Of a stretch of DNA of 64,000 bases, positions 2,460 to 9,251 are shown one piece after another. Numbering within the stretch: the stretch's first letter is position 1; the number at the start of each line of letters is the position of its first letter. The stretch lies in assembly GCF_013314895.1 (NCBI RefSeq), contig NZ_JABTYE010000005.1:186001-250000 (forward strand), read 5' to 3'. The notes beneath the pieces were generated by a model. That model saw only the letters and a program-made list of their open reading frames with translations, was not told the origin of the DNA and did no database searches. This DNA comes from Cupriavidus gilardii. Its GTDB lineage: Bacteria; Pseudomonadota; Gammaproteobacteria; Burkholderiales; Burkholderiaceae. The translations under genes were made by a program, and so were the position numbers.

Positions 2460-5076
<2,617 letters not shown>

Positions 5077-5127
5077 CCGCCCCGCACGATCCGATCCACC
5101 CGCCGCTTCCATCGACAGCCCATCGCC

Positions 5128-6561
5128 ATGACGCAAGCCCCGACCGACGCCCGCCTCCACTCCTTCCTGTCGCTGTGCCGCGCTGCGCTGGGACCGACCC
5201 ACGTGCTGACCGAGGCCGAGGACAAGGCAGCCTATCTGACCGACTGGCGCCGGCGCTATGCCGGCGATGCGCTGGCCGTGCTGCTGCCCGGCACCACCGA
5301 GGAAGTGGCCGCAGCGGTGCGCGCATGCCATGCGCACCAGATCGCGATCGTGCCGCAAGGCGGCAACACCGGCCTGTGCGGCGGTGCTACGCCGGATGCG
5401 TCGCAGCCCTCGGTGGTGCTGTCGCTCAAGCGCCTGAACCGCATCCGCCAGGTCGATCCGCTGAACAACACGATCACCGTCGAGGCTGGCGTCATCCTGC
5501 AACAGGTCCAGCAGGCCGCCAGCGAGCATGACCGCCTGTTCCCGCTGAGCCTGGCCGCGGAAGGCAGCTGCACCATCGGCGGCAATCTGGCCACCAATGC
5601 CGGCGGCACCGGCGTGCTGCGCTATGGCAACACGCGCGAGCTGTGCCTGGGTCTGGAAGTGGTGACTGCCAGCGGCGAGGTCTGGAACGGGCTGCGCGGC
5701 CTGCGCAAGGACAACACGGGCTACGATCTGCGCGACCTGTTCATCGGCGCCGAAGGCACGCTGGGCGTGATCACCGCCGCGGTGATGAAGCTGTACCCGG
5801 CGCCGCGCGCCCGCGTGACGGCGCTGGCCGCGGTCGCCGATCCGCGCGCCGCACTGGCGCTGCTGGCGCTCGCCCAGCGCCATGCCGGCGCGATGCTGAC
5901 CGGCTTCGAGCTGATGTCGGCGATGTGCCTGGAGCTGGTGACTCGCCATTATCCGCAGCTGCGCTATCCGTTCGACCGCCCGCATCCGCAGGTGGTACTG
6001 CTCGAGCTGTCCGACAGCGAAAGCGCCGAGCATGCGCGCGCCACCTTCGAGACGCTAATGGAAGCGGCCTTTGACGCCGGTATCGTCGCCGATGCCGTGG
6101 TGGCCGAATCTGTACAGCAATCGCGCGACTTCTGGAATCTGCGCGAGCACATTCCTCTGGCGCAGGTCGAGGAAGGCAAGAACATCAAGCACGACATCGC
6201 GGTGCCGATCTCGCGCATTGGCGACTTCATCGCCGGCACCGACGCTCAGCTGCAGGCCGCATTCCCCGGCGTGCGCATGGTGACCTTCGGCCATCTCGGC
6301 GATGGCAATCTGCACTACAACGTGTCGCCGCCGGCGGGACAGGACCACGACGCCTTCCTCGCCCACCAGGACGCGATCAACCGCATCGTGCACGACAGCG
6401 TGCATGCGCACGGCGGCTCGATTTCCGCCGAGCACGGCCTCGGCCAGCTCAAGCGCGACGAGAATCGGCGCTACAAGAGCGAGATCGAACTGGCGATGAT
6501 GCGGGCGATCAAGCAGGCGCTGGATCCGCTGGGGCTGATGAATCCGGGCAAGGTGGTGTAA
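5128..6561 (+). CDS. FAD-binding 2-hydroxyacid dehydrogenase (GlcD/D-LDH/D-2-HGDH type)
   Basis: A 477-residue flavoprotein with an N-terminal PCMH-type FAD domain: the pyrophosphate-binding stretch VPQGGNTGLCGG, then GNLATNAGG and the EGTLGVIT segment. The C-terminal oxidase domain carries the metal and substrate motifs HLGDGNLHYN and SAEHGLGQLKR, as in D-2-hydroxyglutarate and D-lactate dehydrogenases. It would oxidise a D-2-hydroxyacid and pass electrons to a quinone or ETF. The exact substrate cannot be read from sequence. It follows the DUF2069 gene after 51 bases and may share the wrbA transcript. Confidence 0.85.
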   Translation: MTQAPTDARLHSFLSLCRAALGPTHVLTEAEDKAAYLTDWRRRYAGDALAVLLPGTTEEVAAAVRACHAHQIAIVPQGGNTGLCGGATPDASQPSVVLSLKRLNRIRQVDPLNNTITVEAGVILQQVQQAASEHDRLFPLSLAAEGSCTIGGNLATNAGGTGVLRYGNTRELCLGLEVVTASGEVWNGLRGLRKDNTGYDLRDLFIGAEGTLGVITAAVMKLYPAPRARVTALAAVADPRAALALLALAQRHAGAMLTGFELMSAMCLELVTRHYPQLRYPFDRPHPQVVLLELSDSESAEHARATFETLMEAAFDAGIVADAVVAESVQQSRDFWNLREHIPLAQVEEGKNIKHDIAVPISRIGDFIAGTDAQLQAAFPGVRMVTFGHLGDGNLHYNVSPPAGQDHDAFLAHQDAINRIVHDSVHAHGGSISAEHGLGQLKRDENRRYKSEIELAMMRAIKQALDPLGLMNPGKVV

Positions 6562-6620
6562 GGCCCCGGGCCAATGTGCGTGCCCGCGCGGCAGCTTGGC
6601 GGGCCGCCATCGTCGCAGAC

Positions 6621-6656
6621 GCCGCGGAGGCCGCAGAGGCCGCAGAGGCCGCATAA
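6621..6656. repeat. 9-bp tandem repeat, four units
   Basis: Four units of the type GCCGCAGAG (the first and last diverged) lie in the intergenic stretch between the dehydrogenase and the selenium-binding protein gene, upstream of its probable promoter. Confidence 0.6.
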
Positions 6657-6696
6657 GCTCATTCGGAATCCGTCGTAAGACAAGGCCCCGGTTCCG

Positions 6697-6725
6697 TTGA
6701 CGCCCCTTCCGTCGCGACCTAGTGT
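6697..6725 (+). promoter_or_regulatory. Putative sigma-70 promoter of the SBP56 gene
   Basis: TTGACG (6697-6702) is followed after 17 bases by TAGTGT (6720-6725). The -35 is good, the -10 modest. It lies about 45 bases before the SBP56 start, whose strong AAGGAGG Shine-Dalgarno is at 6754-6760. Confidence 0.4.
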
Positions 6726-6768
6726 AGATAGGTTCGCTCGACATATCCGCTGCAAGGAGGGGCCTCCC

Positions 6769-8178
6769 ATGAGCCTGCGGCCTGATCCCACATTCCACGC
6801 ATCGCCCGCACTGGCGATGCAGGCGCCGGCGGAAGAGTACGCCTACACGGTGATGCTCAGCCCCGATGCCTCGCAGCCGGATGCGCTCGCCGTCATCGAC
6901 GTCAAGCCCGGCTCGCCGACCTACAGCAAGGTCGTGCATACGGTGCCGATGACCCAGCGCGGCGACGAACTGCACCACTTCGGCTGGAACGCCTGCTCGT
7001 CGGCGCTATCGCCGCTGACGGGGCACGCGTTTCTGGAACGGCGCTTCCTGATCATCCCCGGCATGCGCTCGTCGCGCATCTACATCGTCGATACCAGACC
7101 CCATCCGACCCAGGCGGCGATCCACCGCGTCATCGAGCCCGACGAGATCTTCCGCAAGACCGGGTATTCGCGGCCGCACACCGTGCACTGCGGTCCCGAA
7201 GGCATCTACGTCAGCACGCTCGGCGGCGGGGGCAAGGATGGAACCGACGGCGCGCCCGGCATCTTCATCATGGACTGCGAAACCTTCGACGTGCTCGGAC
7301 GCTGGGAGATCGATCGCGGTCCGCAGGACAAGCACTACGACTTCTGGTGGAACCTGCCGCGCGACTACATGGTGTCGAGCGAATGGGCGCTGCCGCCGCA
7401 GTTCGAGAACGGCCTGGTGCCCGAGGATCTGCTGTCCAATCGCTATGGGCACCGCTTGCACTTCTGGGACCTGCGCGCGCGGCGCAACGTGCAGACCATC
7501 GACCTGGGCGCGCAGCATCAGATGGCGCTGGAAGTACGCCCTGCCCACGACCCGGTGCGCGAGTACGGCTTCGTCGGCGTGGTGGTCGACACCACCAACC
7601 TGGAAGGATCGATCTGGACGTGGTGGCGCGAGGACGGGCAATTCCACGTCGAGAAGACTGCGACGATTCCGGCGGAACCGGCCTCGGCCGACGTGCTGCC
7701 GCCGCTGCTGCAGGGCTTCGGCGCCGTGCCGCCGCTCGTCACCGACATCGACCTGTCGCTCGACGACCGCTTTCTCTACGTCTCCTGCTGGGGCACCGGC
7801 GAGATGCGTCAGTACGACGTCACCGATCCGCGCAAGCCGAAGCTGACCGGCTCCGTGCATCTCGGCGGCATCGCCCGCCGCACGCCGCACCCGAACGGCA
7901 AGTTGTTCGCCGCAGGTCCGCAGATGGTCGAGATCAGCCGCGACGGCCGTCGCGTCTACTGGTCCAATTCGCTCTATTCCAGCTGGGACAACCAGTTTTA
8001 TCCCGACGGCGTGCCCGCTGCGCAGGTCATGGCGCATGCCGACCCGGACGGCGGCCTGACGCTGGCCGACGACTTCTGGGTCGACTTTCCCGCGGGCTAC
8101 CGCGCCCATCAGATCCGCCTCGAAGGCGGCGACTGCTCGACCGACTCGTTCTGCTATCCCTCCGTCGGACCGCGATGA
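6769..8178 (+). CDS. Selenium-binding protein SBP56 / methanethiol oxidase family
   Basis: A 469-residue beta-propeller protein of the SBP56 (SELENBP1, methanethiol oxidase) family. Family landmarks are visible: HHFGWNACSS with the conserved Cys, SSRIYIVDT, RPHTVHCGPEGIYVSTLG, the DKHYDFWWNLPRDYMVSSEW region, TDIDLSLDDRFLYVSCWGTGE and the C-terminal GGDCSTD. The second Cys of the CSSC found in animal homologues is Ala here. Characterised members oxidise methanethiol in a copper-dependent way, giving sulfide, formaldehyde and peroxide. No signal peptide is seen, unlike periplasmic bacterial methanethiol oxidases. The start at 6769 has a near-perfect AAGGAGG eight bases upstream. It overlaps the next gene as ATGA. 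Confidence 0.88.
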   Translation: MSLRPDPTFHASPALAMQAPAEEYAYTVMLSPDASQPDALAVIDVKPGSPTYSKVVHTVPMTQRGDELHHFGWNACSSALSPLTGHAFLERRFLIIPGMRSSRIYIVDTRPHPTQAAIHRVIEPDEIFRKTGYSRPHTVHCGPEGIYVSTLGGGGKDGTDGAPGIFIMDCETFDVLGRWEIDRGPQDKHYDFWWNLPRDYMVSSEWALPPQFENGLVPEDLLSNRYGHRLHFWDLRARRNVQTIDLGAQHQMALEVRPAHDPVREYGFVGVVVDTTNLEGSIWTWWREDGQFHVEKTATIPAEPASADVLPPLLQGFGAVPPLVTDIDLSLDDRFLYVSCWGTGEMRQYDVTDPRKPKLTGSVHLGGIARRTPHPNGKLFAAGPQMVEISRDGRRVYWSNSLYSSWDNQFYPDGVPAAQVMAHADPDGGLTLADDFWVDFPAGYRAHQIRLEGGDCSTDSFCYPSVGPR

Positions 8179-8831
8179 CGTGGGAACAGACCGGTCTCTG
8201 GACCGGTGTGATCGTCAGCGGGCTGTACCACGGCCTGAGTCCCGCGATGGGCTGGCCGCTGGCGGTGTCGAACGGGCTGATGGCCCGGCGCGACGACGCC
8301 GTGTTCGCCGCGCTCGGCTATCTCGGCCTCGGTCATGCCGCCGCGGTGATGACGCTGACGCTGCCATTCGGCCTGCTCGCGTCGCTGGCCGGCTGGCAGC
8401 GCGAGATCCGCTTCGTTGCCGCCGCCCTCGTGATCGGCTACGGCATCGCGCTGCTGGCGCGACGGCGCCATGCACGCGCGCTCGCCCGCATCCCGCCGTC
8501 GCGGCTGACGCTGTGGTCCTTTGCCATTGCGCTCGCCCATGGCGCGGGACTCATGCTGGTACCGATCTATCTCGGCCTTTGCAGCACGGCTACCCACCCC
8601 GGGCATCAAGCCGCCACGGCGCTCGCCTTCGGCAACGCCGGCATGGCCGTGCTGGTCTCGATCGTTCATGCCGCGGCGATGATGACGGGCGGCGGCGCGA
8701 TGGCGTGGGTCACCTATCGCCACGTCGGCCTCGCGCTGGTATCGCGCAGCTGGCTCAATACGGACGCCGCATGGGCGTTAAGCCTGGTACTGGTCGGAGG
8801 GATGTCGCTGATGGCAGCGACGGCGCGCTGA
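8175..8831 (+). CDS. His/Met-rich polytopic membrane protein coupled to SBP56
   Basis: A 218-residue hydrophobic protein of unknown function with about six membrane segments. A histidine inside or at the edge of four of them is followed by a methionine at a fixed distance: His19/Met25, His54/Met59, His122/Met127 and His165/Met170. The segments around His54 and His122 look like an internal duplication (GHAAAVM...LP versus AHGAGLM...VP). Such paired His and Met residues are usual for copper or heme sites in membranes, so a metal-handling role for the SBP56 enzyme is a reasonable inference. The ATG overlaps the SBP56 stop, giving translational coupling. I cannot name the family. Confidence 0.75.
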   Translation: MTWEQTGLWTGVIVSGLYHGLSPAMGWPLAVSNGLMARRDDAVFAALGYLGLGHAAAVMTLTLPFGLLASLAGWQREIRFVAAALVIGYGIALLARRRHARALARIPPSRLTLWSFAIALAHGAGLMLVPIYLGLCSTATHPGHQAATALAFGNAGMAVLVSIVHAAAMMTGGGAMAWVTYRHVGLALVSRSWLNTDAAWALSLVLVGGMSLMAATAR

Positions 8832-9251
8832 AAGCGCCGGCGTGTCGATGCTCGCGCGATCTACGGCGCCGCCGAGCGAAAGACCGTCGGAATGGCAAAA
8901 AGCCCCGGAGTATTCCGGGGCTTTTCGTTTTCTACCTGCTGCTGCATGCGCGGTGCGTCGGTCCGATTGATCCGCTCGGTGCGGATCGCCGGATGCGGCA
9001 GGTCCACCAGAAACACCATCTCTGGCCGGGGACACCATGTCAGCGTTGCGCGCGTTTGAAGTTTGGAAGATGCGGCATCCGTTGCCATCGCCATGCCGAG
9101 CAATGGCAGTGGCCGCGGTCGACCGCCCGATCGCTTGAAATGGCCCGATTTCCCGCCGCGTGCGGACGGCGCGCCGATCTCCGTTCGTGCAGTGGCATCA
9201 ATCCTGCAAGCCCCTACCCCCATGCGTCCGTCTCGGCACAGGAGGTAAGGC
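8832..9251. other. 420-bp intergenic region between the SBP56 unit and mscS
   Basis: Apart from the terminator at 8898-8925 and the AGGAGG of mscS at 9240-9245, nothing is recognised. The middle section (about 8940-9230) has no convincing open frame on either strand and no repeat structure that I can see. The mscS promoter must lie here but no clear pair of boxes was found. Confidence 0.5.
8898..8925 (+). terminator. Rho-independent terminator after the SBP56 operon
   Basis: A 12-bp perfect stem (AAAAGCCCCGGA pairing with TCCGGGGCTTTT) with a 4-base loop, followed by CGTTTTC. The A-tract and T-tract symmetry would also let it act on the minus strand. Confidence 0.85.

Follow-up and report, generated by a model that had tools for sequence, protein, structure and literature searches.

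The locus described here lies in a window of 64,000 nucleotides from Cupriavidus gilardii (contig NZ_JABTYE010000005.1, positions 186,001 to 250,000) and consists of two genes on the forward strand, as are all other features of the window given below. The first gene (6769–8178 of the window), preceded by a Shine-Dalgarno ribosome-binding site read from the sequence (AAGGAGG, 6754–6760), encodes a 469-residue protein of the SBP56 family, and the second (8175–8831) encodes a 218-residue membrane protein of six predicted helices and no named family, which we call MEM. The MEM start codon (ATG, 8175–8177) overlaps the SBP56 stop codon (TGA, 8176–8178), forming the four-nucleotide ATGA (8175–8178) that an earlier, sequence-only reading of this DNA had pointed out, and, counting this genome, candidate MEM starts overlap the SBP56 stop by the same 4 nt in 14 of the 15 closest relatives. 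An intrinsic-terminator-like hairpin follows the pair (8898–8925), a weak signal given that one was found where 0.7 would be expected by chance; a GlcD-like oxidase gene and a mechanosensitive-channel-like gene, both named by eye, are the neighbours.

SBP56 proteins are soluble, copper-type enzymes with relatives from microbes to humans. The window protein matches the whole length of PF05694 at 594.8 bits (cut-off 34) and the Sulfolobus tokodaii protein 2ECE (2ece_A) over its length at 591 bits. Identity with MtoX was considered and rejected, since the NCBIfam MtoX model scores 105.7 bits against an equivalog cut-off of 650; moreover, the N-terminus, MSLRPDPTFHASPALAMQAPAEE, shows by eye no signal-like hydrophobic stretch, in agreement with the earlier remark that this SBP56 lacks a signal peptide. 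Judged by these comparisons, it is a cytosolic-type beta-propeller enzyme of the Sulfolobus-2ECE-like branch.

A set of residues on which copper-dependent activity relies (HH, HxxH, D and E; here H69, H70, H137, H140, D191 and E255) is kept in 48 of 48 MEM-linked SBP56 sequences, mapped by motif to the numbering of human SELENBP1. In human SELENBP1 the counterparts H73, H74, H137, H140, D189 and E252 are required for copper-dependent activity: mutants of these six residues lose nearly all of it, and changes at H137, H140, D189 and E252 also lower the copper content (PMC10362175, excerpt). Changing human H329 abolishes activity as well, and the position counts against full equivalence, being Thr or Leu in all 48 MEM-linked sequences; even the reaction is therefore not certain.

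Linkage of the two genes across genomes and plasmids

Whether the membrane gene keeps company with SBP56 in other genomes was a check proposed in the sequence-only reading, and the two genes do co-occur. Of 24 Cupriavidus genomes, own genome included, the same 19 carry SBP56 and MEM, each time side by side, and the other five carry neither, one of these five being 54% complete; in one of the paired genomes (G001) a stop codon falls inside the matched MEM stretch. Among 299 Pseudomonadota genomes MEM is present in 20, with 18 of the 20 MEM genes adjoining SBP56, and full-length SBP56 (>500 bits) is present in 19 genomes as 21 copies. The hypergeometric probability of this co-occurrence is about 1e-25 when genomes are counted and 6e-16 when genera are, neither figure being corrected for kinship. 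Three full-length SBP56 copies stand without an adjoining MEM (G263 and one copy each of G298 and G220), and the four genomes with only low-scoring, MtoX-like SBP56 (127–150 bits) have no MEM beside it. Sixteen further genomes include one with MEM alone (G030) and one with SBP56 alone (G039).

Among 39 plasmid records with MEM, SBP56 lies no more than about 310 nt upstream in 37, and, conversely, tblastn finds MEM in at least 37 of the 60 listed among 74 SBP56 plasmid records. Of the further SBP56 plasmid records that were fetched, L205 carries MEM, and L202, L203, L204 and L274–L277 do not. The pair reaches beyond Pseudomonadota as well, occurring in Deinococcus, Gemmatirosa and Nonomuraea (Deinococcota, Gemmatimonadota and Actinomycetota, respectively). 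SBP56 and MEM thus form a real and widespread two-gene module, linked beyond chance. A search of genome contigs with the single MEM sequence returned two close relatives, the nearest named relatives of the window MEM are in Cupriavidus cauae and C. gilardii (91% identical), and MEM is absent from the viral contigs and phage records searched. Among the open-access papers searched, we found none that describes the pair.

The two plasmid exceptions are both from Agrobacterium larrymoorei. One of them, pTiAF3.44 (L090), carries at 3567–3989 a 141-codon open frame matching SBP56 that sits between an ISL3 transposase gene and MEM, directly before the latter. Elsewhere, a fragment of SBP56 lies beside an IS3 transposase gene, without MEM, on plasmid plas1 of Loktanella salsilacus (L277, 3932–4957). 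As for the wider surroundings, a cysteine dioxygenase gene lies near the pair in Azospirillum (L091) and a cupin-domain gene near it in Deinococcus (L092), each a hint of sulfur metabolism.

Conserved residues and topology of the membrane protein

The sequence-only reading had singled out four His/Met pairs in MEM (H19/M25, H54/M59, H122/M127 and H165/M170), and all eight residues are indeed present in the window protein. Their conservation was followed in an alignment of 51 distinct sequences, many of them near relatives, of which 49 are SBP56-linked (among them an A. larrymoorei row whose SBP56 is only a fragment) and two are unlinked. None of the 49 linked sequences departs from the four histidines, M25 or M127, a conservation that for the histidines is beyond chance; position 59 has Met in 3 of 49, and position 170 has a residue other than Met in at least 46, so that two of the pairs do not survive as first drawn. 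In the last of them H165 stands and its proposed partner varies, the conserved fourth methionine being instead M169 (45 of 49); the fourth site is therefore HxxxM. The conserved residues fall in predicted helices TM1, TM2, TM4 and TM5: H19-x5-M25 in TM1 (HGLSPAM, 8229–8249), H54 in TM2 (8334–8336), with the variable M59 beside it, H122-x4-M127 in TM4 (HGAGLM, 8538–8555) and H165-x3-M169 in TM5 (8667–8681). There is no D, E, K or R among the positions conserved in at least 95% of the sequences; position 197 is Asp or Glu in 47 of the 49 linked sequences and lies outside the helices, in the loop before TM6. Invariant histidines predicted to be buried in this way suggest a supply of metal to SBP56.

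From hydropathy and the positive-inside rule, MEM is predicted to have six helices with both the N and the C end outside. The loops at residues 37–43, 96–110 and 179–199 carry on average 2.0, 4.5 and 2.4 Lys plus Arg; the middle one, an arginine-rich loop predicted to be cytosolic (8460–8504), has no Asp or Glu. The earlier impression that two segments are duplicated is visible in the DNA itself, where a 26-nt direct repeat around H54 (8329–8354) recurs around H165 (8662–8687) with 88% identity. In a gapless column scan, TM1 against TM4 ranks 1 of 100, and TM2 against TM5 and TM3 against TM6 each rank 2 of 100; it is suggestive that the halves are two three-helix repeats, resembling each other weakly and in order, and hhalign of the two halves found no such repeat. 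An AlphaFold2 model built from three sequences (window, L016 and L017) reached a pLDDT of 42.8 and a pTM of 0.30.

The two unlinked relatives (G030 and G320; L022 and L210) bear on a quite unlikely reading in which MEM would be a membrane anchor or regulator of SBP56, its His and Met residues structural, and the pair would travel together for another reason. Both lie directly after a gene for a different enzyme, a DUF899-type protein (assigned by Pfam in G030 and by eye in G320), and the role of MEM may therefore be a general one. Against an anchor or regulator stand the invariance of all four histidines within predicted membrane helices and the change of a ligand-type residue in both unlinked relatives, Met25, replaced by Thr or Asn, being among the positions altered.

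Comparisons with known transporter and cytochrome families

The window MEM has no family match in Pfam, NCBIfam or PHROG, and so falls in none of the named families searched; the family profile matches no PDB chain. At loose Pfam and NCBIfam thresholds, 32 MEM members gave scattered weak matches, each in one to four members, with best E values of 0.0012 and 0.0032, respectively. The earlier proposal of a new membrane component for SBP56 therefore stands on the linkage, the histidines, the three methionines kept and the lack of a named family, and fails in two of its exact His/Met pairs.

In profile comparison by hhalign, for which two rows in the wrong frame (L129 and L146) were dropped before the profiles were built, the highest-scoring family is the RcnA-type NicO family (PF03824), weakly so at 34.1 and a probability of 26.6%; two subsets of MEM give 31.0 and 33.8. 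The alignment sets GLYHGLNPAMG against GIFHAAGPGHG, with H19-x3-P-x-M-G in register with H-x3-P-G-H-G, such that the TM1 H-x3-P-x-x-G motif occupies the same place in both. Other pairs of different families score 12–25, except MEM with DsbD_2 (27.4) and the ZIP-like set with ZIP (27.0); among the controls, the LysE profile includes at least two misread rows (L251 and L252). Two further controls temper the match: MEM scores 38.5 against its own reverse, a level that hydrophobic symmetry can thus attain by itself, and RcnA and NiCoT, although both belong to PF03824, score only 16.1 against each other, which together make the comparison both noisy and insensitive. With single sequences, three of seven RcnA-type members (best 25.2) exceed all 58 background membrane ORFs (best 20.2), as do five of 16 DsbD_2 members (best 22.2). 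Of those three RcnA alignments, one lies outside TM1, and the other RcnA members fall within the background. NicO proteins are built of three-helix repeats, of which a counterpart is weakly seen in MEM, and use the second His of the PGHG motif along with acidic ligands. MEM differs in having Met in place of that His (P(A/G)MG) and no acid at the positions conserved in at least 95%, and no Pfam match to PF03824 exists among the 32 members. We therefore treat the resemblance to RcnA/NicO as a lead, not membership.

Because RcnA-type NicO proteins are an efflux family, this best if weak similarity favors a reading that we think unlikely, if not strikingly so, namely that the cargo of MEM is a thiol, sulfide or another sulfur compound that SBP56 uses or makes, or that MEM exports a metal instead of importing it. 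The cysteine dioxygenase and cupin genes near two of the pairs would fit such a sulfur-related cargo. Methanethiol and H2S pass membranes freely, and invariant His and Met are not expected of a carrier for small thiols. Free crossing of membranes by H2S, as stated in an excerpt of PMC10936201, likewise argues against a carrier, and, with regard to export, the incomplete gene tables of eight annotated plasmid loci show no metal-efflux regulator next to the pair.

A cytochrome is the other family that the histidines bring to mind. It is unlikely, in our estimate, that MEM is a b-type cytochrome in which the four invariant His ligate one or two hemes and pass electrons from SBP56 to the quinone pool, even though their placement on TM1, TM2, TM4 and TM5 fits bis-His ligation and the SBP56 genes of another clade are mostly followed by a 2Fe-2S ferredoxin (see below). 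The profile score against 24 cytochromes b of PF01292 is 15.2, which is at background, though the method also missed known relations; Met25 and Met127 are as invariant as the histidines; and an invariant Pro and Gly interrupt TM1 (HGLNPAMGW), a break more usual in the helices of transporters. The replacement of MEM in Streptomyces, moreover, looks ZIP-like, not cytochrome-like.

Alternative neighbours of SBP56 and the proposed role of MEM

That replacement emerges from a tree of 63 SBP56 sequences, from which L042, L277, L043, L081 and L082 were left out as partial or MtoX-like and the fragment L090 had been dropped earlier. The 48 MEM-linked sequences and two Streptomyces sequences lie together on one side of a branch supported at 100/100, the Streptomyces pair being sister to the MEM-linked Nonomuraea sequence (100/99), with long branches and a warning from the tree program. 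Long rows (L092, L093, L096 and L204), the odd composition of L202 and the meeting of long branches at the deepest split should be borne in mind in reading the tree. In Streptomyces, inside the MEM-linked clade, a ZIP-like membrane protein takes the place of MEM, and similar proteins occupy the same position after SBP56 in haloarchaea; they differ from MEM in having HxxxE motifs instead of His/Met, and the MEM profile finds none of them. The two Streptomyces proteins match Pfam Zip below its cut-off (E 0.0011 and 0.0076), a haloarchaeal one tested alone has no Pfam match, and the set of five, haloarchaeal members included, has its best score against ZIP (27.0; next best 19.9), in an alignment that pairs its HxxxEG and HxxxE sites with the ZIP ones. 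The five are L275, L280 and L281 from haloarchaea and L276 and L202 from Streptomyces, all with HxxxEG and a second His motif; in L281 the gene comes after SBP56 and a ferredoxin, and the L202 copy has an internal stop.

The occupation of one slot by different metal-handling proteins is the main argument that MEM, too, would handle a metal; besides the ZIP-like proteins, PpoB2 beside one Paracoccus SBP56 and SCO1 beside MtoX (both below) lend it indirect support. The assignment as ZIP-like itself weakens the argument, being sub-cut-off in Streptomyces and absent for the tested haloarchaeal protein, and ZIP proteins usually carry Zn or Fe. Where the sequence-only reading had left copper loading, electron transfer and product transport side by side, metal loading now stands ahead of the other two, by the indirect evidence of partner replacement and ligand make-up. 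We consider it about evenly poised between right and wrong that the six helices of MEM form a transporter or metallochaperone for a soft metal, with Cu(I) the likeliest, in the service of the cytosolic SBP56. The two proteins would form a two-gene unit, with MEM in the inner membrane as two three-helix halves whose N and C ends face outward. Each half would offer one HG-x(3-4)-M site (H19/M25 in TM1; H122/M127 in TM4) and add one further histidine (H54 in TM2; H165, with M169, in TM5), and these soft, uncharged ligands could serve as a path or transfer site for the metal, which MEM would bring across the membrane or hand on locally, such that SBP56 may be metallated as it is made. A metal as the cargo, copper as that metal, the direction of import and a direct hand-over are what we infer, copper being suggested by the make-up of the ligands, His and Met, and by the HxxxM motif, which in CcoA-like transporters predicts Cu import when it occurs together with MxxxM (see below).

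MEM, conserved and unnamed, would offer a testable bacterial system for asking how copper is delivered to cytosolic SBP56/SELENBP1 enzymes when cells hold free copper at very low levels, and is a candidate for a new copper-transport family. A wider proposal, tentative enough that we would lean against it at present, is that MEM founds a new family of small Cu(I) importers or membrane metallochaperones, built from two three-helix repeats and dedicated to loading one class of cytosolic enzymes, that SBP56 has repeatedly recruited unrelated metal-handling partners (MEM, ZIP-like proteins, PpoB2 and SCO1), and that the MEM branch without Met25 serves DUF899 as a second client.

Three described systems can be set beside the proposed metal delivery by MEM. 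SCO1/SenC and MauG genes often accompany that of periplasmic MtoX (PMC5739008, excerpt), and there, as here, an SBP56-family enzyme is encoded with a partner, which in the case of MtoX handles copper. MtoX differs in being periplasmic, with a signal peptide and an SCO1 chaperone, whereas the present enzyme is of the cytosolic type and its membrane partner is of no named family; neither SCO1/SenC nor MauG is annotated next door in the eight plasmid loci, again with incomplete gene tables. The PpoB1–PpoB2 operon (PF09948, COG5486) of Marinomonas mediterranea likewise couples a copper oxidase gene with one for a dedicated transmembrane protein, PpoB2, that takes part in transferring copper to the tyrosinase encoded in the same operon (PMC2855505, excerpt). 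PpoB2 has a different client enzyme and no detectable homology to MEM (hhalign 18.6; no PF09948 match among the 32 MEM members), and its appearance beside SBP56, which speaks for metal delivery, was seen once. The third system, CcoA/CalT of the MFS, resembles MEM in an HxxxM within a membrane helix and provides a dedicated Cu route to one oxidase, and in CcoA-like transporters it is MxxxM together with HxxxM that predicts Cu import (PMC6362234, excerpt); it differs in belonging to another superfamily, with 12 helices and MxxxM, while MEM, at 218 residues and six predicted helices, has HxxxM only.

On the other side of the tree, a 2Fe-2S ferredoxin lies downstream of SBP56 in 10 of 13 cases, one of them (L274) assigned to Fer2 by eye, its ferredoxin-like stretch being divided between reading frames. 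Of these ten, one is then followed by a PpoB2-family protein and one by a ZIP-like protein; of the remaining three, two have a ZIP-like protein without an annotated ferredoxin, and one, from Rubrobacter, has neither annotated. With ferredoxins beside another SBP56 clade, an electron-transfer partner is a real alternative to metal delivery, and MEM may have such a role. The PpoB2-family case is on a plasmid of Paracoccus seriniphilus (L204, NZ_CP067131.1), where 4962–7537 encodes SBP56, a 2Fe-2S protein and the PpoB2-family membrane protein in turn. A recurring operon type, annotated in L278 and recognized by eye in L206, L207, L208 and L209, consists of a gene for a SELENBP1-like SBP56 and, after it, genes for a 2Fe-2S ferredoxin and for a CoA-binding protein.
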